Below are positions 1,762 to 28,184 of a stretch of DNA of 35,138 bases, one piece after another. Source of the stretch: Chloroflexota bacterium. Its GTDB lineage: Bacteria; Chloroflexota; Dehalococcoidia; Lucifugimonadales; UBA3495. The DNA lies in the NCBI GenBank assembly GCA_002698265.1, contig NZVX01000084.1:31461-66598 (forward strand). The letters are read 5' to 3'. The notes under the pieces are model-generated. The model was not told the origin of the DNA. It did not search any database and saw only the letters and a program-made list of their open reading frames with translations. Numbering within the stretch: the stretch's first letter is position 1; every line of letters begins with the position of its first letter. A program made the position numbers and the translations under genes.

Positions 1762-3033
1762 ATGAGAACCTTACTCACCACGACTCGCGACCGGTTTCTC
1801 CTGGCGCTGCAATACCAGGATTACCGCAATCTTTGGATAGCCACCACTTTTTCCGCCTCCGCCGCTTGGGCTCTGATCATTGCCCGGGGCTGGCTGGCCT
1901 TTGAACTCACCGACGGTTCTCTCTGGGTTGGCGTAGTCACCTTCGCGGCCACCGGGCCGAGGGTGTTCTCAACGCCCATCGCCGGGTTCCTGGCCGACCG
2001 GTTCGACCGGCAGAAGTTGTTGCGTTGGATATTTGCCCTGAACATGGGCAACAACATCCTGCTGGCCCTGTTGGTCATGACTGGAAATGCGGGTCCCTGG
2101 ACGCTCACTTTCCTGGCCCTGACTAACGGCACTCTGCGGGCCGCTCAGATGACCACGGCCACCGCCCTGATTCCCAATTTGGTGGACAAAGACCACCTGA
2201 TGAACGCCATCGCCTTGAACCAGGCCACTCAACAAGGCGCCCGGATGCTCGGTGCGCTGGCCATAATTCCCCTGTTGGGTTACCTGAACATCGAGGCAGC
2301 CTTCTGGCTCTGTAGCAGCTTCTACTTCTTCGGCTTCCTGCAGGTCTCGCGCGTCAAAACCCGGTCCACCGGGGTGATCAACAAAAGCCAGGGTTTCTTG
2401 TCCAACCTGTTGGAAGGTTTCGTCTACGTCTACAAGCGGCCGACCATCATGGCCATGGTACTGCTGGTCTTGGCTCACTGCGCGTTGACCATGTCCTATG
2501 AGTCCATCTTGCCGGCCATCTCCGAAGACAAATTGGGCGCCGGATCAGTGGGTGTAAGCGCCTTGATCGCCGGGGTCGGCGGGGGCGCGCTGCTGACATC
2601 CATCTTATTGGCAGGGGTCCGTAGCGAGTCGGCCAGGGGCAAGCTGTTCTTGTTCTTCGCCTTCACCAGCGGACTGGGGCCCATGCTCCTGGCATGGTCG
2701 GACAGCAGCGCACTATCTATCTTCGCCACGGCGGTGATGGGCGCCAACCAAGCTGGGTTCATGACCATCAGCCACACCATCATTCAGTCGCTCACCGAGG
2801 ACCATGTCCGCGGCCGAGTGGCCGGCGTTTATTCGGTCCATGTGGGCGGCAGCATGGCGGTGACCAACATGGCCAACGCGGCCTTCGCAGACATCTTCAG
2901 CGCTTCAGCCGTACTAGTGTTTGGCGGCCTGATATTCGTGGTAGTCGTCTTCGTCAGCCTGGGGAGCGGGTCGTTGCGGAAGCTCTATTTCCCGGGTGCG
3001 GCACAGCCGGCAGTCGGGGCCACGGCCGATTAG
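1762..3033 (+). CDS. MFS transporter, EntS-like (MFS_3 type) exporter
   Basis: A 423-residue integral membrane protein with about twelve hydrophobic segments. The loop after the second segment carries GFLADRFDRQKLLR, the G-x-x-x-D-R-x-x-R signature of the major facilitator superfamily. The N-terminal LQYQDYRNLWIATTFSASAAW and the loop-8 stretch VRGRVAGVY are typical of the MFS_3 group, which includes enterobactin exporter EntS and similar drug or siderophore exporters. It would act in the cytoplasmic membrane as a proton-coupled exporter; the substrate is unknown. The ATG at 1762 follows AGGA with suitable spacing, and a TATAAT box lies 36 bases upstream. It leads a plus-strand series continuing 89 bases later with an aminotransferase-family gene, and it is divergent from the CoA-transferase pair. 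Confidence 0.9.
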   Translation: MRTLLTTTRDRFLLALQYQDYRNLWIATTFSASAAWALIIARGWLAFELTDGSLWVGVVTFAATGPRVFSTPIAGFLADRFDRQKLLRWIFALNMGNNILLALLVMTGNAGPWTLTFLALTNGTLRAAQMTTATALIPNLVDKDHLMNAIALNQATQQGARMLGALAIIPLLGYLNIEAAFWLCSSFYFFGFLQVSRVKTRSTGVINKSQGFLSNLLEGFVYVYKRPTIMAMVLLVLAHCALTMSYESILPAISEDKLGAGSVGVSALIAGVGGGALLTSILLAGVRSESARGKLFLFFAFTSGLGPMLLAWSDSSALSIFATAVMGANQAGFMTISHTIIQSLTEDHVRGRVAGVYSVHVGGSMAVTNMANAAFADIFSASAVLVFGGLIFVVVVFVSLGSGSLRKLYFPGAAQPAVGATAD

Positions 3034-3122
3034 GGGAGCCTCCGCTCTTACCTTGCCCCTTGCGAGGAAGAAGGGACTTCTCGTATCATTCGCCGCATCA
3101 CCCGCGCAGTTAGGAGACACCC

Positions 3123-4487
3123 ATGGCCGAGACCACCAGAGAACTTGACCGTTATCTCAAATCAACTCCCAAGTCCAAGGCCCTGTGGGAGGACGCCAAG
3201 AACTACCTGCCCGGCGGCGACAGCCGGAACTCCATCTTCTGGGCGCCCTATCCCATCTTCGTGGACCACGCCGCGGGCTGTCATGTGGTCGATTCCGACG
3301 GCGTGGACCGGCTGGATTTCATCGGCACCATGACTACGCTGGTTCTGGGTCATTCTCCCAAGCCGGTGGTGGACGCGGTCCAAGAACAGATGAAGCACGG
3401 CGTCGTCTACAACGCCCCCAACGCCCACCAGGTGCGCCTGGCCAAGCTACTGTGTGAGCGGATACCCAGTTTTGATCTGGTGCGGTTCACCAACTCGGGC
3501 ACCGAGGCCACGCTGAACACCATCCGGGCGGCGAGGGCCATTACTGGTAAGAACAAGATCGCCAAAGTCGAGGGCGGCTACCACGGTAGCCACGACCAAG
3601 TGAGTGTCAGCGTGCGAGTTAACCCCGCCAAGGCCGGTGAGCGCTCCCATCCCGACGCCATGGCCGCCACCGAGGGCCTGGGCGAGGGCACCCTGGACCA
3701 GGTGGTGGTGATGCCTTTCAATGAGACGGCCATCGCCCGGGAGATACTGGAACGTCACAAAGACGGGCTGGCGGCGGTGATCATTGAACCCATGCTGGGC
3801 TCCGTTGGGATGCTGCCAGCCACGCCGGAATTCCTGGCCATGCTGAGGGAGTTTACCACCAAAAACGGCGTCATCCTGATCTTCGACGAGGTCATCAGCT
3901 ACCGCGCGGCGTCGGGCGGCGCTCAGGAGTACTACGGGATCACCCCGGACATGACCTCGTTGGGCAAGATCATCGGTGGCGGGTTCTCCATCGGCGCCTT
4001 TGGCGGCAGCAAGGACATCATGGACCTCTACGACCCCACTGCGGCCGGCGGACCCAGAGTGGCCCACGCCGGGACCTTCAACGCCAACCCGGTCACCATG
4101 CTGGCGGGGGCGGCGACGCTGGAAGAACTAACCCCCGATGTCTACCGCAAGCTGGCCGAGATGACCGAATATTTGCGGGCCGGCATCCTCCAGGTTAGCG
4201 CAGAACTGGAGACGCCGATCCAGGTGACGGGCCTGGGGTCATTGTTCGGCATCCATTTCACCAGCGAGGAACTGGTCGGCTACCGCGACATCGCCGCCGA
4301 GGACTCGGCCTTCCGGCACCAGGTGTTCTTGGGGCTGTTAAACGAAGGCATCCTGATGGCCTCCAATCTGGTGGGAGCGGTCTCCACGGAGATCGGCGAG
4401 AAAGAAATCGACACTTTCACCGCGGCGCTCCGGCGGGTGCTGGAACGGGCTCTGACGCCGTCGGGCTTAAACCCATACCTGCCCTAA
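3123..4487 (+). CDS. Class III PLP enzyme, glutamate-1-semialdehyde 2,1-aminomutase-like
   Basis: A 454-residue protein of the class III aminotransferase family. Seen are the LPGGDSRN start of the substrate pocket, NSGTEATLNTIRAARA (phosphate and cofactor site), the GGYHGSHD motif, FDEV with Asp255 for the pyridine nitrogen, and SLGKIIGGGF with the PLP-binding Lys at residue 282. These match the HemL branch of the family. True HemL makes 5-aminolevulinate for tetrapyrrole synthesis, but many catabolic relatives share the motifs. The neighbours are not tetrapyrrole genes, so I would not call it hemL. The start at 3123 has an AGGAG (3112-3116) six bases upstream. A possible promoter (TTGCGA at 3060-3065, 18 bases, TATCAT at 3084-3089) precedes it. 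Transamination of an amino acid or amine with unknown substrate is the safe call. Confidence 0.85.
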   Translation: MAETTRELDRYLKSTPKSKALWEDAKNYLPGGDSRNSIFWAPYPIFVDHAAGCHVVDSDGVDRLDFIGTMTTLVLGHSPKPVVDAVQEQMKHGVVYNAPNAHQVRLAKLLCERIPSFDLVRFTNSGTEATLNTIRAARAITGKNKIAKVEGGYHGSHDQVSVSVRVNPAKAGERSHPDAMAATEGLGEGTLDQVVVMPFNETAIAREILERHKDGLAAVIIEPMLGSVGMLPATPEFLAMLREFTTKNGVILIFDEVISYRAASGGAQEYYGITPDMTSLGKIIGGGFSIGAFGGSKDIMDLYDPTAAGGPRVAHAGTFNANPVTMLAGAATLEELTPDVYRKLAEMTEYLRAGILQVSAELETPIQVTGLGSLFGIHFTSEELVGYRDIAAEDSAFRHQVFLGLLNEGILMASNLVGAVSTEIGEKEIDTFTAALRRVLERALTPSGLNPYLP

Positions 4488-4490
4488 ACT

Positions 4491-4564
4491 GTCATTCTGA
4501 GGCGTCAGCCGAAGAATCTGCCAACTCTCACCTTGGCAGACCCTTCTCCTCCAGCGGAAGGACC
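4491..4564. repeat. Degenerate intergenic repeat elements
   Basis: The gap after the aminotransferase-like gene holds a GTCATTCTGAG...GAAGAATCT element (4491-4519), then CCTTCTCCtccagcGGAAGGA (about 4542-4562), an imperfect palindrome. The second matches palindromes at 13271-13298 and 20720-20743. Such short imperfect repeats between genes are common in some Chloroflexota genomes; their function is unknown. Confidence 0.5.
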
Positions 4565-4615
4565 CTTTAAACCGTAAACTAAGTGCGCTCGATTATCTCT
4601 ATAGGGGGCCAGACA

Positions 4616-5488
4616 ATGTTTGAGGGATTCGAAGAGTTTCAAATCGAAGCCAACGGCACCACCATCAACCTGGTGAAGGGCGGCAGCGGGCCGCCGATGC
4701 TGATGCTCCATGGGTATCCCCAAACCCACGCCATGTGGAACAAGATCGCGCCGCGGCTTGCCGAGGACTTCACCGTGGTATGTCCGGACCTGCGGGGCTA
4801 CGGCGACAGCGCCAAGGTGGAGGGCGATCCGGAGCACATGAACTATTCCAAGCGCGTCATGGCCCAGGACCAGGTGGACGTCATGAAGCAGCTAGGGTTT
4901 GAAAAATTCTACCTGGTGGGCCACGACCGGGGTGGCCGGGTGTCGCACCGGCTAACCAAGGACCACCCGGAGAAGGTCTTGAAATTGGTGACACTGGACA
5001 TCATCCCCACCCACAAGATGTTCCAGATCGTGGACAAGGATTTCGCCACCAACACCTACCACTGGTTCTTCCTGATCCAGCCCTTCGACTTCCCGGAGCG
5101 GGTGATCGGCGCCGACCCTGAGTTCTACGCGGGCCGGGGGTTCAACCGGGTCAAGGACTCGGACAAGGTGTTCACGCCCGAGGCGCTGGCCGATTATCTG
5201 CGCTGTTTCAACAACCCGGGCACCATCCACGCCTGCTGCGAGGACTACCGGGCCGGGGCCAGCATCGACCTAGTCCACGATGACGCCGATTTCGACCAGA
5301 AGATAAACTGCCCCATGTTGGTTATGTGGAGCACGACGGGCTTCGTGGGCCGGACCCAGGACGTGCTGAAAGTCTGGCAGGACTACGCCACCAACGTCCG
5401 CGGCCTCCCCCTACCCTGCGGCCATTACATAGCAGAGGAACTCCCCGACGAGGCCTACGAAGCCATCAAGGGGTTCTTGTCAGAGTAA
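4616..5488 (+). CDS. Alpha/beta hydrolase, fluoroacetate (haloacetate) dehalogenase-like
   Basis: A 290-residue alpha/beta hydrolase. Haloacetate dehalogenases use an Asp nucleophile to displace halide, two Arg to hold the carboxylate, His-Trp-Tyr to bind the halide ion and a general-base His. All are present here: Asp104 with Arg105 and Arg108 in VGHDRGGR, His149-Trp150 in TYHWFFL, Tyr211 in CEDYRAG and His270 in PCGHYIAEE. The oxyanion-side HGYPQTHAMW motif and the spacing also follow the well-studied Rhodopseudomonas enzyme, as I recall its sequence. I chose the ATG at 4616 because AGGGGG lies at 4603-4608. A GTG at 4583 would add eleven residues but has no ribosome binding site. Substrate preference (fluoro-, chloroacetate or another alpha-halo acid) cannot be read from sequence. 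It lies between the PLP enzyme and a cupin on the same strand. Confidence 0.85.
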   Translation: MFEGFEEFQIEANGTTINLVKGGSGPPMLMLHGYPQTHAMWNKIAPRLAEDFTVVCPDLRGYGDSAKVEGDPEHMNYSKRVMAQDQVDVMKQLGFEKFYLVGHDRGGRVSHRLTKDHPEKVLKLVTLDIIPTHKMFQIVDKDFATNTYHWFFLIQPFDFPERVIGADPEFYAGRGFNRVKDSDKVFTPEALADYLRCFNNPGTIHACCEDYRAGASIDLVHDDADFDQKINCPMLVMWSTTGFVGRTQDVLKVWQDYATNVRGLPLPCGHYIAEELPDEAYEAIKGFLSE

Positions 5489-5653
5489 ACACATGGCTGA
5501 TGCACAGTCGGGGTAATACCCCCGTTCGTCCTGAGCTCGAACCATAGGTCAAGAGTCTCGATGCAATCGGACCCGTCGAAGGGCCAGATCGGCCGCGATC
5601 ATTGTTCACAAACAAAACCAATTACGTAGCAAATAAACAAAAGGGAGAACAAA

Positions 5654-5986
5654 ATGGGTTCCATCAGAATGTACACCGGTGACGACGGCAACACTCACAT
5701 AGAGGAGATCAACCCCTCGGACCACCCAGCCTGGAACGAGCTCCACGACGCCAAGGGAATCATCTTCCGCGCCCAGCAGCCCGGCTTCTTCAGCGACTGG
5801 CACATCGCCCCCCGCCGCCAGTACATCATCACCCTCTCCGGCGAGGCTGAGATCGGCCTAAAAGACGGCACCGTCCACCGTTTGGGGGCCGGCGACGTGA
5901 ACCTAGCCGAGGACCTGACCGGGGCTGGTCACACCACTCGGGTGGTTGGGGATGTTCCGAGGGTTACGGCGACGGTGCAGTTGTAA
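5654..5986 (+). CDS. Small cupin-domain protein
   Basis: A 110-residue single-domain cupin. The first conserved motif includes DWHIAPRRQYIITLSGEAEI (49-68) and the second GDVNLAEDLTGAGHTTR (80-96). His50, Glu64 and His93 are candidate metal ligands. Such proteins bind a metal and act as small dioxygenases, isomerases or sensors; the exact role here is unknown. A GGGAGAA lies just before the ATG at 5654, in an A-rich leader. The 165-base gap from the dehalogenase gene contains a broken repeat of the ...CTGAGC...GTCGAAGG type (about 5523-5583), so the cupin may have its own promoter. The N-terminal 40 residues are less typical and may extend the barrel. Confidence 0.8.
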   Translation: MGSIRMYTGDDGNTHIEEINPSDHPAWNELHDAKGIIFRAQQPGFFSDWHIAPRRQYIITLSGEAEIGLKDGTVHRLGAGDVNLAEDLTGAGHTTRVVGDVPRVTATVQL

Positions 5987-6226
5987 GGGTAAATCCCTTA
6001 GCAAGGCTTTGATAATCGGCGGGTCTTGGACTCGCCCATTTGCAAATTAGTTTGATATCTCTGTCCAGTAAGTTGGGCTAACCGCCCGTTAGATCGCCGA
6101 AGTTAATCTCGCGATGCGGTCTAAGCACCCCGATATTCGTTCGAGCGCAACTCCACGCGAATCGGGAAAGGGATTCAGTCGGATTTCGGAACGGTTGCCC
6201 AACTTGAGAAATCAGTGAAGGCTGAA

Positions 6227-20763: not shown

Positions 20764-21861
20764 TCAGGACCCCATCTGTGCAGCCAGACGGTCCAGATGG
20801 TATTCGGTATCGCCCAGGTTCGCCTCGGAGATCTTGGCGCGGGCCGAATAGAGCTGCATGTCGTGTTCAACGGTAAAGGAGATTCCGGCGAAGATAGAAT
20901 GACCGGCCTCGGTGGCCAGCCTGCTCAGCATTCCAGCCTGAGCCTTGGCCATGGAGACCTCGTCATCGGCCGTTAGGCCTTGGTCCAACTTCCAAGCCGC
21001 CTGATAGGTGAGCATCCTTCCGCCGTCCACCGCAACTCTGAGATCGGCGCACCGGTGCTGGACGGCCTGGAAAGTCCCGATGGGGCGTCCGAATGCGACG
21101 CGGTGTCCGGCGTATTCGACCACCATCTCCAAGACTTTTTGCGCCCGGCCCAAGGTCTCGGCGCATTGGGCCACGGTGGCCCGACGGACCGCCAGGTCCA
21201 AGGCTTGCATCCCCTCGGCAGTCTGACCCAGGACCGAGTCATCGGGAAGCGGCACGTCATCGAAATCGACCAGGAACTGGGGATAGTTGGCGATGGACTC
21301 CATGGACGTCATAGTCACGCCGGCCGCCTTCGGGTCCACCAGGACCAAGGTTGTATCTGGCCAGGCTCGAATTGCGGGGCGGGTGGCGCAGATGATGTTA
21401 GTGGCCAACCCGGCATAAGGGACGAAAAGGCTGTCGCCGCTGAGGGTCAACCCGCCGTCACGGGATGCGGTCTCCAGGCGGTCTCCCCTGGCCAGCGTCA
21501 GGATGACCTCACCGCTGATGACCCCAGGGATCAGAGCCGTTTTCTGATCGTCGTTTCCGGCAATCAGCACTATCTGGGCTGCCAAAACGGATGATGTCAG
21601 CAATGGGCCCGGCGTCAAGGCCCGCCCGATCTCCTCAAATAAGACGGTCTGATCTGTGAGGGAGCCGCCGGTCCCGCCGAACTGCTCCGGAAGTGAAATA
21701 CCCAGCCAGCCGAGTCCGGCGATCTTCCGCCAAAGCTCCCGTGCATGGCCTTCACCCGATTCTTCGGCTTGGCGTACCAAGGACGTAGGGCACTCCGCCT
21801 CGAGGAACTCGCGGGCGGAGTGCCGGAGGATCTCCTCTTGTTCTGTCAGGCCAAAGTCCAT
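20764..21861 (-). CDS. Acyl-CoA dehydrogenase family protein, probable second subunit
   Basis: A 365-residue acyl-CoA dehydrogenase homologue. The N-terminal domain has LTEQEEILRHSAREFLEAECP and LGWLGISLPEQFGGTGGS; the C-terminal domain has the FGRPIGTFQAVQHRCADL helix and ISFTVEHDMQLYSARA. The usual beta-domain signature (xFSEPxxGSD) is missing: the region reads ILTLARGDRLETASRDGG. This is the pattern of the partner chain in two-gene (alpha2beta2) dehydrogenases like those of steroid side-chain degradation. Its ATG at 21861 lies 12 bases after the stop of the upstream acyl-CoA dehydrogenase gene, which has the missing signature. The pair probably forms one FAD enzyme that makes an enoyl-CoA. 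The substrate is unknown. Confidence 0.88.
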   Translation of the reverse strand: MDFGLTEQEEILRHSAREFLEAECPTSLVRQAEESGEGHARELWRKIAGLGWLGISLPEQFGGTGGSLTDQTVLFEEIGRALTPGPLLTSSVLAAQIVLIAGNDDQKTALIPGVISGEVILTLARGDRLETASRDGGLTLSGDSLFVPYAGLATNIICATRPAIRAWPDTTLVLVDPKAAGVTMTSMESIANYPQFLVDFDDVPLPDDSVLGQTAEGMQALDLAVRRATVAQCAETLGRAQKVLEMVVEYAGHRVAFGRPIGTFQAVQHRCADLRVAVDGGRMLTYQAAWKLDQGLTADDEVSMAKAQAGMLSRLATEAGHSIFAGISFTVEHDMQLYSARAKISEANLGDTEYHLDRLAAQMGS

Positions 21862-21873
21862 AGATCGGTATCC

Positions 21874-23043
21874 CTAGCGGGGCATCCCGAGGCCCCGTTG
21901 GGCAATGATGTTGCGGTGAATCTCGGTGGTGCCGGCGCCGTGCAGATGCATGGCTTCGCGGTGGATACCTTCTATATTGCCCAAGAGCGGCGCCATGGGA
22001 GAGCCGTTACGCAGTGTGGCGTAGGGACCGAGGACCTCCATTGCCATCTCGGCGAAACGCAGACGCTCTTCGCTGCCGTACAGAAACGCTACCGACGCCT
22101 CTGAGTTGGGCACGGCTCCCGAGCTCTGCATCCAGGCCACGTTCCAGCAGAGCAGCTTCCAAGTCTCCATGCCCAGCCTGCGTTGGGCCAGTTGGTGGCG
22201 GACTAATGGGTGCTCGGCCAAGGGCTGCCCGCCGTCGGGGGAGGAGCCATTGCAGAATTCGACAAAGTCATCGAACACCCGCCGCACGTTGGCATAGCGC
22301 CAAAGGCCGGATCTCTCATAGTCCAGCGTGGTCATCGCGTGGTACCAGCCCCGGTTCTCCTCGCCGATCAAACACGATAACGGCAGACGGACGTTGTCGA
22401 AGATAGTTTGGGCCGCCATCTCGCCGTTTATATAGGGCAGGGGAGTTAGGCTGATACCCGATGTCTTGAGGTCGGCGATGAATAGGCTGATGCCGCGGTG
22501 CTTCTGGGCCTGTGGGTCGGTTCGGGCAAGTAGATACATATAGTTGGCGTGGTAGGCGTAACTGGTGAACATCTTGGAGCCGTTCAGCACATACTCGTCG
22601 CCGTCGCGCTCGGCCCGCAACTCCAATGACCCTAGATCGGATCCCACGTTGGGTTCGCTGAAGCCCTGGCAGTACTCGACCTCGCCCTTGGCGATGGCGG
22701 GCAGATACTGGTCTTTCTGGTCTTGGGTTCCAAATACCATGATGGCCGGGCCGACGATTCCCAGGCCGATGGAGCCACTCTTTGGCACCCGCCAGTATCC
22801 CATGTCTTCGGCCAAGATGCCCTGTTCGATGGGGCCTTTCCCGCCACCACCATGCTCTTCCGGCCACCCCACGGCCAGCCATTTCCGTTCCGCCAGTTTC
22901 AGGTTGATCTCCCGGCCGAACTGGTACTGCTCCTCGGTCAACAGACCGAAAATCTCCTGCTTCTCCACGGGGACTTCAGCAGTGAGGAATTCGCGGAGTT
23001 CTTCTCTGAATTTTTCTTGTTGGAGGGTGAAGTTGAAGTCCAT
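21874..23043 (-). CDS. Acyl-CoA dehydrogenase, FAD-binding subunit
   Basis: A 389-residue acyl-CoA dehydrogenase. Seen in order are FTLQQEKFREELREFLTAEVP, GWPEEHGGGGKGPIEQ, the family signature GFSEPNVGSDLGSLELRAERDG, the LNGSKMFTSYAYHANYMY strand and the C-terminal HGAGTTEIHRNIIAQRGLGMPR. In MCAD-like enzymes a Glu precedes the GT of this last motif; here it is Ala, so the base must come from elsewhere, as in several FadE types. The gene is followed after 12 bases by a second dehydrogenase-family gene lacking the FAD signature, suggesting a heteromer. A repeat-rich gap separates it from the LLM gene at 23208, further upstream on the same strand. Confidence 0.92.
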   Translation of the reverse strand: MDFNFTLQQEKFREELREFLTAEVPVEKQEIFGLLTEEQYQFGREINLKLAERKWLAVGWPEEHGGGGKGPIEQGILAEDMGYWRVPKSGSIGLGIVGPAIMVFGTQDQKDQYLPAIAKGEVEYCQGFSEPNVGSDLGSLELRAERDGDEYVLNGSKMFTSYAYHANYMYLLARTDPQAQKHRGISLFIADLKTSGISLTPLPYINGEMAAQTIFDNVRLPLSCLIGEENRGWYHAMTTLDYERSGLWRYANVRRVFDDFVEFCNGSSPDGGQPLAEHPLVRHQLAQRRLGMETWKLLCWNVAWMQSSGAVPNSEASVAFLYGSEERLRFAEMAMEVLGPYATLRNGSPMAPLLGNIEGIHREAMHLHGAGTTEIHRNIIAQRGLGMPR

Positions 23044-23207: not shown

Positions 23208-24203
23208 TCAGGCTGGGGCGCAGCCGCGGATGATCTTCATGGCTTGCTCTTTGGCGCCCTCGCCCATGAACCTGGGCGAGACGATGGGCAGGGTGATACC
23301 TGCCTCACGGTATCCGGTCAGCTTTTCGCGGATCTCTTCGGCGGTGCCGACCAGGCCGATCTTGTCGATGAGACCGCCCGGCACCAAGTCCAGGGCTTCC
23401 TGGATGTCGCCTGCCTGCCAGGCCACCCGCACGCCCTCGATCTCCTCCGGAAATCCAGCATCTATCATGAGTTTGCGGTAGCGGGGAAACCGGCCGGCGT
23501 AAGACGCGATGGGCATGCGCATCAGGTCGCGGGCGGCATCCCGGTCGTCGGATACGGCGCACGGGAGCAGGCTGGCCACGTCCACGTCAGCCGGATCGCG
23601 CCCGGCGTTACGAGCGCCGAGGCCGACAGCCCGAGCCGCCTCTGCCGCGTGGTCCAAGGTGCACCACGTCAAGATCGCTCCATCGCTGATCTCGCCGCAG
23701 ACCTCGAGCATCTTGGGGAACACTGCCGCCACGTAGACGGGTATCTCAGTTCGTAGCGGCTCGAACCACAGGTCGAAACGCTCTATGTCGTAGATATCAC
23801 CATGGTAGTTCACGTCCGAGTCCTTGAGGATTGCCCGCACGATGTCCACGCATTCCCGCAGCCGCTGCACGGGGCGGGTGAACTCCAAGCCGTGTTCCGG
23901 CTCCACCTGGACCTTGTGGCTGCTGCCCACTCCAAGGATGAAACGGCCGTTTGAGAAGTAATCCACCGAGGCCGCTGCCATGGCTATCGTTGGCGGTGTG
24001 CGGACGAAGACGCTGGTGATACTGGTACCCAGTTTGATCTTCTCGGTGGCCACCGCGCAGGCGGTTAGGACGGAGAACTGGTCGCCGCCGTGACCCTCAG
24101 CCACCCAGGCCGACTCATAGCCCAAGTCCTCGGCGACCTTCACGCACTCGACGATATCTTTGGGCGACATCCCCCCCGAAAACCCAACTCCGATGCGCTC
24201 CAT
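23208..24203 (-). CDS. LLM-class F420/flavin-dependent oxidoreductase (MER-like)
   Basis: A 331-residue luciferase-superfamily enzyme. It begins MERIGVGFSGGMSPKDIVEC, with LGYESAWVAEGHGGDQFSVL, KIKLGTSITSVFVRTPPTIA, the FSNGRFILGVGSSHKVQVE loop and IPVYVAAVFPKMLEVCGEISDG. These features fit the methylene-tetrahydromethanopterin-reductase-like branch, often F420-dependent; several Chloroflexota and Actinobacteria expand it. GGGAGGAC lies a few bases before the ATG, a strong ribosome binding site. It precedes the two acyl-CoA dehydrogenase genes on the same strand with a 164-base repeat-containing gap, so co-transcription is possible but not certain. It is divergent from an MFS gene. The cofactor and substrate are open. 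Confidence 0.88.
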   Translation of the reverse strand: MERIGVGFSGGMSPKDIVECVKVAEDLGYESAWVAEGHGGDQFSVLTACAVATEKIKLGTSITSVFVRTPPTIAMAAASVDYFSNGRFILGVGSSHKVQVEPEHGLEFTRPVQRLRECVDIVRAILKDSDVNYHGDIYDIERFDLWFEPLRTEIPVYVAAVFPKMLEVCGEISDGAILTWCTLDHAAEAARAVGLGARNAGRDPADVDVASLLPCAVSDDRDAARDLMRMPIASYAGRFPRYRKLMIDAGFPEEIEGVRVAWQAGDIQEALDLVPGGLIDKIGLVGTAEEIREKLTGYREAGITLPIVSPRFMGEGAKEQAMKIIRGCAPA

Positions 24204-25613: not shown

Positions 25614-26849
25614 CTACTCCAAAACCCCTTCATCTTCCAGCGACTTGTACTCATCGTCGGTCAGACCGATCAGGTCTTTCAAGACATGGGAGTTGTGCTC
25701 CCCCAATAGAGGGGCAGGTGTGTCTAGGCTGCCCGGACTTAGCGATAAGACCATCTCGCTGCAGTCGGTGGCATAGGGACCGATCTCCTGGTGGTCCAGC
25801 CACTGGAAATGGCCACGATGCCGCAGTTGGGCGTCGTCGAAGAGATCCCGGCAGTCGTTGACCATCCCGGCGGGCACCCCAGAACTCTGCAACGTCTCCA
25901 TCAGAGCTCCCACATCCCAAGAACTGGTCCAAGTAGATAATAGTTGTTCCAGTTCGTCTTCATTGGCTTTTCTGCCCAGTAAGGTGGCGAAATCGGGGTT
26001 GTAGGGCCAGCCGGTGCCATCTTGGGAGATGGTCCGTTGCAGTCCTTCCCAATGGGCGTCGGAGAAGCAGCCCAGGGCGATCCAACGATCGTCTCCAGCA
26101 CAGGGAAAGACCCCGTGGGGAGCGGCGCCGGGGTCGCGGTTCCCCGCGCGGACCTGCTCACGTCCGTTAACCGCGTAGTCCAACAGCACCGGCGCTGAGA
26201 AGTGCAACGTAGTCTCCAGTTGGGACATATCTATATGGATACCCTCTCCGGTGCGGCGTCTGCGATCCAACCCGGCCAGAATGGCGGCAACGGCGAACCT
26301 GGGGACGATGAAATCGGTGTAAGCGCCATAGGGGTTGACGGGGTCGCGGTCGGGCCAACCGGTCAGGTTGGTCAGACCCACCAGGGAGGACAGCACTGGC
26401 CCGAAGCCTGGTTGTTTTTCCATCGGCCCGCCCCGGCCCATCATGGAGGTGCTGAACATCACGATGCCGGGGTTTTCTTGCTTGAGTTGGTCGAAACCGA
26501 GCCCCCAGCTCTCCATGGTGCCGGGTGTGAAATTCTCGGTAACTAGGTGGGCCCACTTAGCCATGCGCAGCATCAATTCGCGGGCCCTGGGGTGCCGCAT
26601 GTCGACCGTGATACCCATCTTGTTGGCGTTGTAGCTGGCGAAGTAGGCGCTGCGGTTGATGCCGGAAACCCCGTCTTTGAAGGGCGCGGCCCGCCGCAAG
26701 GTGCCGGGGCGTTTCACCGACTCCACGCGCACGACGGTGGCGCCGTATTCGCCCAGGTATTTGGTGGTCATGGGGCCAACGGCAACCCAGCAGAAATCAA
26801 GCACATTTACGCCGTCCAGAGGCTTGACTGTTTCACGTTGGGCGGTCAT
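25614..26849 (-). CDS. CaiB/BaiF family III CoA-transferase, catalytic subunit
   Basis: A 411-residue family III CoA-transferase. It has LDGVNVLDFCWVAVGPMTTKYLGEYGATVVRVES at the start, ENFTPGTMESWGLGFD near 105, and the active-site block NPYGAYTDFIVPRFAVAAI (172-190) with Asp179 as the expected catalytic residue. The later GEGIHIDMSQLE and the FPCAGDDRWIALGCFSD segments are typical. It transfers CoA between a donor acyl-CoA and a carboxylic acid. Its ATG (26847-26849) overlaps the stop of the upstream gene in an ATGA, so the two are translationally coupled. With that gene it forms a pair that mirrors 1-1597. Acceptor and donor cannot be told from sequence. Confidence 0.93.
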   Translation of the reverse strand: MTAQRETVKPLDGVNVLDFCWVAVGPMTTKYLGEYGATVVRVESVKRPGTLRRAAPFKDGVSGINRSAYFASYNANKMGITVDMRHPRARELMLRMAKWAHLVTENFTPGTMESWGLGFDQLKQENPGIVMFSTSMMGRGGPMEKQPGFGPVLSSLVGLTNLTGWPDRDPVNPYGAYTDFIVPRFAVAAILAGLDRRRRTGEGIHIDMSQLETTLHFSAPVLLDYAVNGREQVRAGNRDPGAAPHGVFPCAGDDRWIALGCFSDAHWEGLQRTISQDGTGWPYNPDFATLLGRKANEDELEQLLSTWTSSWDVGALMETLQSSGVPAGMVNDCRDLFDDAQLRHRGHFQWLDHQEIGPYATDCSEMVLSLSPGSLDTPAPLLGEHNSHVLKDLIGLTDDEYKSLEDEGVLE

Positions 26850-28111
26850 ATAACACCGCCGCGCTTAAGAGACTCGATCTCCGCCCGGGATAGGCCGATC
26901 TCTTCTTGGTATATCTCCAGATTGTGCTCACCGATCAAGGGCGGCCTGCGGTAGAGACCGGCGATATCGACGCCGTCACCCGATTTGATGAACGCGCCTG
27001 GATACTGAACGGCGACACCCAGTTCCGGGTGGTCCAGTTCCTTAAAATACCCGCGGGCTTCGAGTTGCGGGTGGCCTTGGAGGGCAGCCGGAGTGGCTAC
27101 GGGGAACAGTAAGATCCGCCGGTCGAGACTGCCCTGAACCAATTCCGCTCTGGTGTGGCCTTTGAAGAAATCTCCCAGAGGCCCGCCCAGTTGGGCCATG
27201 AGTTCCGGGGTTATCGCCCCGTATCCCATCTCTTCCCAATCGATGGCATTCAGATCGGCAGTGTCTAATCCGTCCTCTCCCATCCACCCCAACAGGGCGC
27301 GGGTGCTGTAGGCGACCGTGCCGCCTTGGACCATGTAGTTTACATAACCATCTTTGCAGGGCCAGTTGATGCGCACCCGGTTCTCCCCGGAGGTCTGGCG
27401 ATAGACGCCCTGACGCTTTAGGATCGCGCCTTCGATGTCCCAGATCTGCGGCGCGTGGGCTAGGGTCTTCGCCACGGCCTGCTGACAGGAAACGTCGACG
27501 TATTGGCCCTGCCCGGCGATCATTCGATGGGTGTGGGCCAGCATGGCGGCCGTGGCGCCGGCAGCTCCTCCGTGGAGGTAGAATTGGGGGAAGCTGATGC
27601 GGACGGGGGCGCGGTCGTCGTCACCGGTCAGATACATGAACCCGCCCAGCGCCATACCCACGATGTCGGTCGCCTGATAGTTGGAGTAAGGCCCGTCCTG
27701 TCCGAAGGGGGTGATGGACACCATGACCAGCTTGGGGTTGATCTCCGCCAGACGCTTGTAGGTCAGACCCAGCCCTTCCAGATAACCGGGGGAGAAGGAC
27801 TCCAATAGGAAGTCGGCTTCGGCGACCAGTTTCTCCATCAGGGCCCGTCCGTCCTTCTGCTCTAGGTCCAGGGTGATGCTCCGCTTATTGGCGGCGTAGG
27901 CCCACCAGAATAGGCTCTTCTCGGGCAGTGGGTCGTCGCCGTGGAAAGGTCCTATGTTCCGGGCCGGACTGCCGCCCGGGGGCTCGATCTGAATCACATC
28001 GGCGCCCAGGTCGGCCAGTATCTTGCCAGCCAGTATGCCGCGTTCGTCGGTCAGGTCGAGAACTCGGTAGGGGGCCAGCAGAAAATCTATCCCAGTCGGG
28101 TCGCCGGACAT
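26846..28111 (-). CDS. CaiB/BaiF family III CoA-transferase, probable non-catalytic partner subunit
   Basis: A 421-residue family III protein. It shares YRVLDLTDERG (15-25), GADVIQIEPPGGSPARN, NKRSITLDLEQKDG, ESFSPGYLEGLGL and VSITPFGQDGPYSNY with the 411-residue protein at 362-1597, without gaps over the first 180 residues. At the expected catalytic Asp the sequence is RISFPQFYLHGGAAGA, with Phe177, so by alignment it lacks the nucleophile. Its downstream partner does have it. It starts at ATG 28109-28111 behind TTTGGAG, and a promoter lies at 28157-28184. A structural subunit of a heteromeric CoA-transferase, comparable in gene arrangement to benzylsuccinate CoA-transferase BbsEF, is the best guess. 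Gene duplication of the whole cassette is inferred. Confidence 0.92.
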   Translation of the reverse strand: MSGDPTGIDFLLAPYRVLDLTDERGILAGKILADLGADVIQIEPPGGSPARNIGPFHGDDPLPEKSLFWWAYAANKRSITLDLEQKDGRALMEKLVAEADFLLESFSPGYLEGLGLTYKRLAEINPKLVMVSITPFGQDGPYSNYQATDIVGMALGGFMYLTGDDDRAPVRISFPQFYLHGGAAGATAAMLAHTHRMIAGQGQYVDVSCQQAVAKTLAHAPQIWDIEGAILKRQGVYRQTSGENRVRINWPCKDGYVNYMVQGGTVAYSTRALLGWMGEDGLDTADLNAIDWEEMGYGAITPELMAQLGGPLGDFFKGHTRAELVQGSLDRRILLFPVATPAALQGHPQLEARGYFKELDHPELGVAVQYPGAFIKSGDGVDIAGLYRRPPLIGEHNLEIYQEEIGLSRAEIESLKRGGVI

Positions 28112-28156: not shown

Positions 28157-28184
28157 ATTGTAATATCCCCCAAATTTTCGTCAA
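28157..28184 (-). promoter_or_regulatory. Sigma70-type promoter of the second CoA-transferase cassette
   Basis: On the minus strand TTGACG (28179-28184) and TACAAT (28157-28162) are 16 bases apart, each matching five of six consensus positions. Transcription would start near 28150, about 39 bases before the ATG. It resembles the promoter of the first cassette (TTGACT, 17, TACAAT). Confidence 0.55.

Follow-up and report, generated by a model that had tools for sequence, protein, structure and literature searches.

The DNA analysed here (the window) is a stretch of 35,138 nt corresponding to bases 31461–66598 of the 66.6-kb contig G000:C46, which belongs to a 2.1-Mb draft genome with a completeness of 78.5%. 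Based on homologue searches, the closest named relatives of this genome are SAR202/Dehalococcoidia MAGs. On the minus strand, positions 26846–28111 encode a protein of 421 amino acids, referred to here as the alpha (upstream) subunit, and positions 25614–26849 encode a protein of 411 amino acids, the beta (downstream) subunit; the two ORFs overlap by 4 nt and are designated cassette 2. Both products are members of PF02515, with whole-domain matches of 322.9 and 244.1 bits (cut-off 23.3). Their best PDB matches are the two chains of BbsEF, the succinyl-CoA:(R)-benzylsuccinate CoA-transferase (PDB: 9fn0, 9fol, 9fun), namely chain A for alpha (9fn0_A; E value 1e-65) and chain B for beta (9fn0_B; E value 2e-90). 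The AlphaFold models of the two subunits have mean pLDDT values of 85 and 86; in structural comparison each model again finds its own BbsEF chain first, 9fn0_A in the case of alpha, and the beta model has a Z score of 41.5 against 9fol_D. The pair falls below the NCBIfam cut-off for the single-gene equivalogs (FRC, SUGCT, mesaconate and carnitine CoA-transferases), the best score being 196.8 vs 750 bits. A sigma-70-like promoter, TTGACG-16-TACAAT, is located on the same strand at 28157–28184, 45 nt 5' of the alpha start codon, and a 10/12 match to it with the identical 16-nt spacing is present in 9 of the 11 relatives of cassette 2 that were inspected.

A further pair, cassette 1, is situated about 24 kb away on the same contig, with the same strand and gene order. 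Its alpha subunit (362–1597; minus strand) has 411 amino acids, belongs to PF02515 and matches 9fn0_A best (E value 4e-54). The beta gene (1–359; minus strand; best PDB match of the product 9fn0_B, E value 9e-49) follows after a gap of 2 nt and is truncated by the window start, so that 119 residues are inside the window; the whole gene (G000:C46:30581–31819) encodes 412 amino acids and is also a PF02515 member. The sigma-70-like promoter of this cassette, TTGACT-17-TACAAT, is an exact motif match at 1650–1678, again on the minus strand. A first-pass annotation of this DNA had described the two pairs as sharing gene order, strand, close junctions, several sequence motifs and a TTGACx...TACAAT promoter, and all of these features were borne out for both pairs: the window contains just two copies of TTGACN-N15–18-TACAAT, one ahead of each cassette, against a chance expectation of 0.01. 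The upstream proteins of the two cassettes share 38.7% identity (390 columns) and the downstream proteins 29.8% (396 columns), while alpha and beta inside one cassette share only 24–25%. Compared subunit to subunit, the cassette proteins have 37–39% identity with the BbsEF chains.

The source genome has about 40 PF02515 matches in a profile search and contains roughly ten tandem CoA-transferase pairs, both window cassettes among them. It also carries two CoA-transferase remnants, at L021 (G000:C54) and L022 (G000:C51), one with an internal TAG and the other with domain pieces in the wrong order. Parts of the report by Landry et al. (2017; PMC5395668) describe an expansion of CaiB/BaiF paralogues, the family to which the cassette proteins also belong, in SAR202, a group of presumed oxidisers of recalcitrant dissolved organic matter in whose genomes CoA-transferase paralogues are prominent. 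In those parts the paralogues are treated as one family, with no mention of pairs or of missing nucleophiles.

The position of the catalytic nucleophile was assigned from the structure with PDB code 9fol, entitled 'BbsEF, D178-CoA adduct', in which chain B carries Asp at residue 178 and chain A carries Ala. The numbering of FRC was checked against 2vjk, and FRC Asp169 maps to the column of BbsEF residue 178. In cassette 2 this position is occupied by Asp179 in beta (codon 26313–26315, minus strand) and by Tyr178 in alpha (codon 27578–27580, minus strand), and the heterodimer should thus have one nucleophile. The alpha subunit of cassette 1 has His178 at this position; the corresponding codon of its beta subunit contains an ambiguous base in this assembly and the residue is unreadable. 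Among 64 pairs, the Asp is present in 62 betas and in none of the alphas, and it is likewise found in each of the 42 solo copies of four genomes. The pattern at the FRC Glu140 position is the opposite one, an acid being kept by alpha and absent from beta (Asp149 and Gly150, respectively, in cassette 2). Alpha also differs from FRC at Asn96, Arg104 and Lys75, while beta mostly retains FRC Asn96 (82%) and Pro20 (96%). An earlier candidate assignment, in which column 149 held the catalytic Asp and the upstream subunit would be the active one, was ruled out because column 149 corresponds to FRC Glu140 and FRC Asp169 to column 178. The related proposal, in which the conserved small domain of beta was taken as proof of a composite site whose nucleophile comes from alpha, fell when FRC Asp169 was mapped to beta.

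The same distribution was observed when pairs were collected by adjacency. The members of the 64-pair trees had been chosen by column 149 (one protein with an acid, one without), a criterion that was not used in the adjacency surveys. In four genomes, 33 of 36 adjacent same-strand domain pairs have exactly one nucleophile; the three exceptions are the unreadable codon mentioned above, one Asn, and one beta beside a separate solo-type gene. A same-class relative, G129 (2.9 Mb, draft; 135 domains of PF02515), was analysed alone to exclude mere species history, and the Glu140 region was masked when its domains were assigned to classes. This genome contains 48 alpha-beta adjacencies, a few of which share one subunit (41 alpha-first, 7 beta-first, 8 fused). 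One nucleophile is present in 43 of these, and an Asp in both subunits in the other 5, which may have two sites. Two conserved types of solo protein, RPGFGTIAECMSG and PANNPCVQGMGGW, carry Gly or Asn at the FRC Glu140 position with the nucleophile Asp retained (loci L006, L159 and L171, and L018, L156, L157 and L179). At L143:1950–4316 (G028), a fused alpha-beta gene has Pro at the FRC Glu140 position of its alpha part.

A tree of 126 domains places almost every pair member in one of two sister clades, which have 35 and 36 rows (SH-aLRT 100 each) and contain one BbsEF chain each; the DddD-like and a few other fusions lie outside of them. Separate trees of the two subunits, the comparison by which the first-pass annotation had proposed to show that they evolve as a unit, match in topology. 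For the 64 pairs, the alpha and beta trees have 41 of 61 splits in common (permutation mean 0.2, maximum 2), and the alpha and beta distances are correlated with r 0.72 (permutation maximum 0.24). Within G129, 25 of 45 splits are common to both trees (permutation maximum 3; r 0.74). Natural alpha-beta fusions also exist. It is well supported by these sequence comparisons that the subunits evolve as one unit, presumably that of a heteromeric enzyme.

A different question is whether the two cassettes arose from one another by duplication of a single cassette within this region, as had been suggested in the first-pass annotation. Of that suggestion, the part that treats each pair as a whole heteromeric enzyme agrees with the mirrored trees and the BbsEF chain matches, and the part that invokes a local duplication does not stand. 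The shared contig, the separation of about 24 kb and the identical strand and order would fit such an event, as would the arrangement in G023, the closed chromosome of another genus, where relatives of cassette 2, of cassette 1 and of a DddD-like fusion are found at 1.893, 1.928 and 1.970 Mb, those of the two cassettes about 32 kb apart. However, the identities between the cassettes are just 39% and 30%, and each has its own relatives at 71–76% in another genus. In both subunit trees many lineages, including Proteobacteria and Actinobacteria, fall between the two cassettes, and cassette 2 has a closer relative in BbsEF than in cassette 1. Constraining the cassette groups together was rejected by AU tests for the upstream (p-AU 0.0145) and the downstream subunits (p-AU 0.00018). 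Taken together with the intervening lineages, these tests lead us to reject a local origin, which we regard as highly improbable. The cassettes are instead two of about ten ancient pairs of the source genome, and the clustering of their relatives in G023 suggests, from the two genomes compared, that the neighbourhood may be old. The putative change of substrate between the cassettes is plausible.

We predict that the gene pair encodes the alpha and beta subunits of a heteromeric family III CoA-transferase of the BbsEF type, with a probability of roughly 85%. The two distinct subunits are encoded side by side, each has a different BbsEF chain as its nearest relative, and only one of them has the nucleophile; with respect to PF02515, beta contains the nucleophile Asp and alpha has the fold without the catalytic residue. 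Cassette 2 belongs to this known type, and it is notable for the unusually large co-diversified set of which it is a member. BbsEF likewise consists of two unequal family III subunits, one with the nucleophile Asp; unlike BbsEF, the cassettes are deeply diverged and accompanied by many paralogous pairs per genome. No match to the glycyl-radical enzyme family (PF02901) was found in the source genome, which is 78.5% complete, and benzylsuccinate is therefore an unlikely substrate. The homodimeric enzymes FRC, YfdW, YfdE, SUGCT and Mct have the fold and, according to the literature, the interlocked domain layout in common with the cassette products, as well as the nucleophile Asp (in beta), but they are encoded by one gene and have two equal sites, whereas in the cassettes the nucleophile is in one subunit only. 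SmtAB, the succinyl-CoA:malate CoA-transferase of Chloroflexus, has been described as a family III enzyme encoded by two genes, likewise in a member of the Chloroflexota. An asymmetric double-domain design is also found in DddD, which has two fused CaiB-like domains. The fusions that we call DddD-like from their architecture, not from an alignment with DddD (L001:3728–6109 on G000:C46, L165 and L176), carry the Asp equivalent to FRC Asp169 in their second domain but not in the first. Since they form a separate lineage in the tree, such asymmetry apparently has more than one origin.

Alternatively, the two products might function independently: beta would be a conventional homodimeric CoA-transferase, and alpha would be a different enzyme with this fold (e.g., a racemase, lyase or isomerase) that is only co-transcribed. 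Homodimers are the rule for this fold (PMC3720670), and a complete beta homodimer is possible in principle, as this subunit has the nucleophile as well as a conserved small domain. The co-diversification over 64 pairs and inside one genome argues against independent products, as do the near-constant adjacency and repeated fusion of alpha and beta and the heteromeric nature of the nearest solved relative, which is built of exactly these two types; we consider independence unlikely. Alpha might also be suspected to be a decayed, pseudogene-like copy that serves no purpose, given its missing nucleophile, the loss of several CoA contacts and its weakly conserved small domain. Yet the large domains of alpha and of solo copies are equally conserved (2.59 vs 2.58 bits), the reading frames are intact and kept beside beta across phyla, and the alpha tree mirrors the beta tree, so that a roleless alpha is hardly credible.

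In the heteromeric CoA-transferase that we propose, alpha and beta would be interlocked in the manner of other family III enzymes. Asp179 of beta would first be acylated by a CoA donor, which might be succinyl-CoA as it is for BbsEF, attack of CoA on the acyl-Asp179 would give the aspartyl-CoA adduct, and the acceptor acid would then pick up CoA and depart as its thioester. Alpha, which lacks the nucleophile and most of the canonical CoA contacts, would contribute its small domain, closing over the beta site. The active site of the fold is known to be formed by the large domain of one subunit and the small domain of its partner (PMC3720670, PMC9196870). By this published architecture the beta nucleophile should face the small domain of alpha, which is by far the least conserved part of the pair. 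The mean conservation per column is 2.49 bits for alpha large, 1.55 for alpha small, 2.26 for beta large and 2.46 for beta small; the contrast between the two small domains has a p of about 1e-12, and it persists with independent alpha and beta alignments and after thinning of close relatives. The fast-evolving small domain of alpha is accordingly a candidate determinant of acid specificity and likely the place where the acid is recognized. The nucleophile-free half (alpha large and beta small) is more conserved than the nucleophile half, a pattern not expected from simple decay of a second site. One might speculate that this half serves a separate function, for instance in regulation, in ligand binding or in a second chemistry, and that the alpha small domain meanwhile retunes the single catalytic site, a proposal that we regard as rather doubtful; if true, SAR202 relatives would hold dozens of asymmetric enzymes on one chassis.

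The neighbours of cassette 2 include a pair of acyl-CoA dehydrogenase genes, MaoC, luciferase-like oxidoreductases and transporters, and they point to catabolism of an organic acid via a beta-oxidation-like route. The two adjacent dehydrogenase genes (20764–23043; minus strand), candidates for the next step, have PimD and PimC as their closest curated models, with scores well under the cut-off for both, and possibly encode a heteromeric dehydrogenase. They start about 2.6 kb downstream of cassette 2, with an opposite-strand transporter gene and a luciferase-like gene in between. In distant relatives of cassette 2 (L093–L099, L105 and L127), the CoA-transferase pair is immediately preceded by a similar dehydrogenase pair, and in L099 the four genes (1408–2643, 2647–3768, 3775–5001 and about 4998–6212) are nearly contiguous. 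With BbsEF, CoA transfer is followed by dehydrogenation by BbsG (PMC10818641). From the gene order in the relatives, CoA transfer and then dehydrogenation is the likely sequence, and the two pairs in the window may be functionally linked as well. Six luciferase-like oxidoreductase genes are present in the window between 6227 and 31600; the one at 23208–24203 is closest to F420-dependent models, below cut-off.

The downstream protein of cassette 2 has 91% identity with that of the SAR202 cluster bacterium OSU_TB47. Its relatives, with the taxon of each MAG contig taken as deposited, come from SAR202 and other Dehalococcoidia, Entotheonella, Tectomicrobia, Burkholderiales, Deltaproteobacteria, Binatota and Nonomuraea. 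The partner adjoins in most of 80 loci (58 as a separate gene and 4 fused), and many of the others are at contig ends or have the partner slightly further away.

If many of the SAR202 paralogues are obligate two-gene enzymes with one nucleophile, expression of single genes or annotation based on the upstream gene would miss or misname their function. The matched alpha and beta trees offer a ready design for tests of specificity in which subunits are paired or swapped. The many co-evolved pairs in this genome and its relatives suggest a large candidate toolset for degrading unusual carbon compounds.
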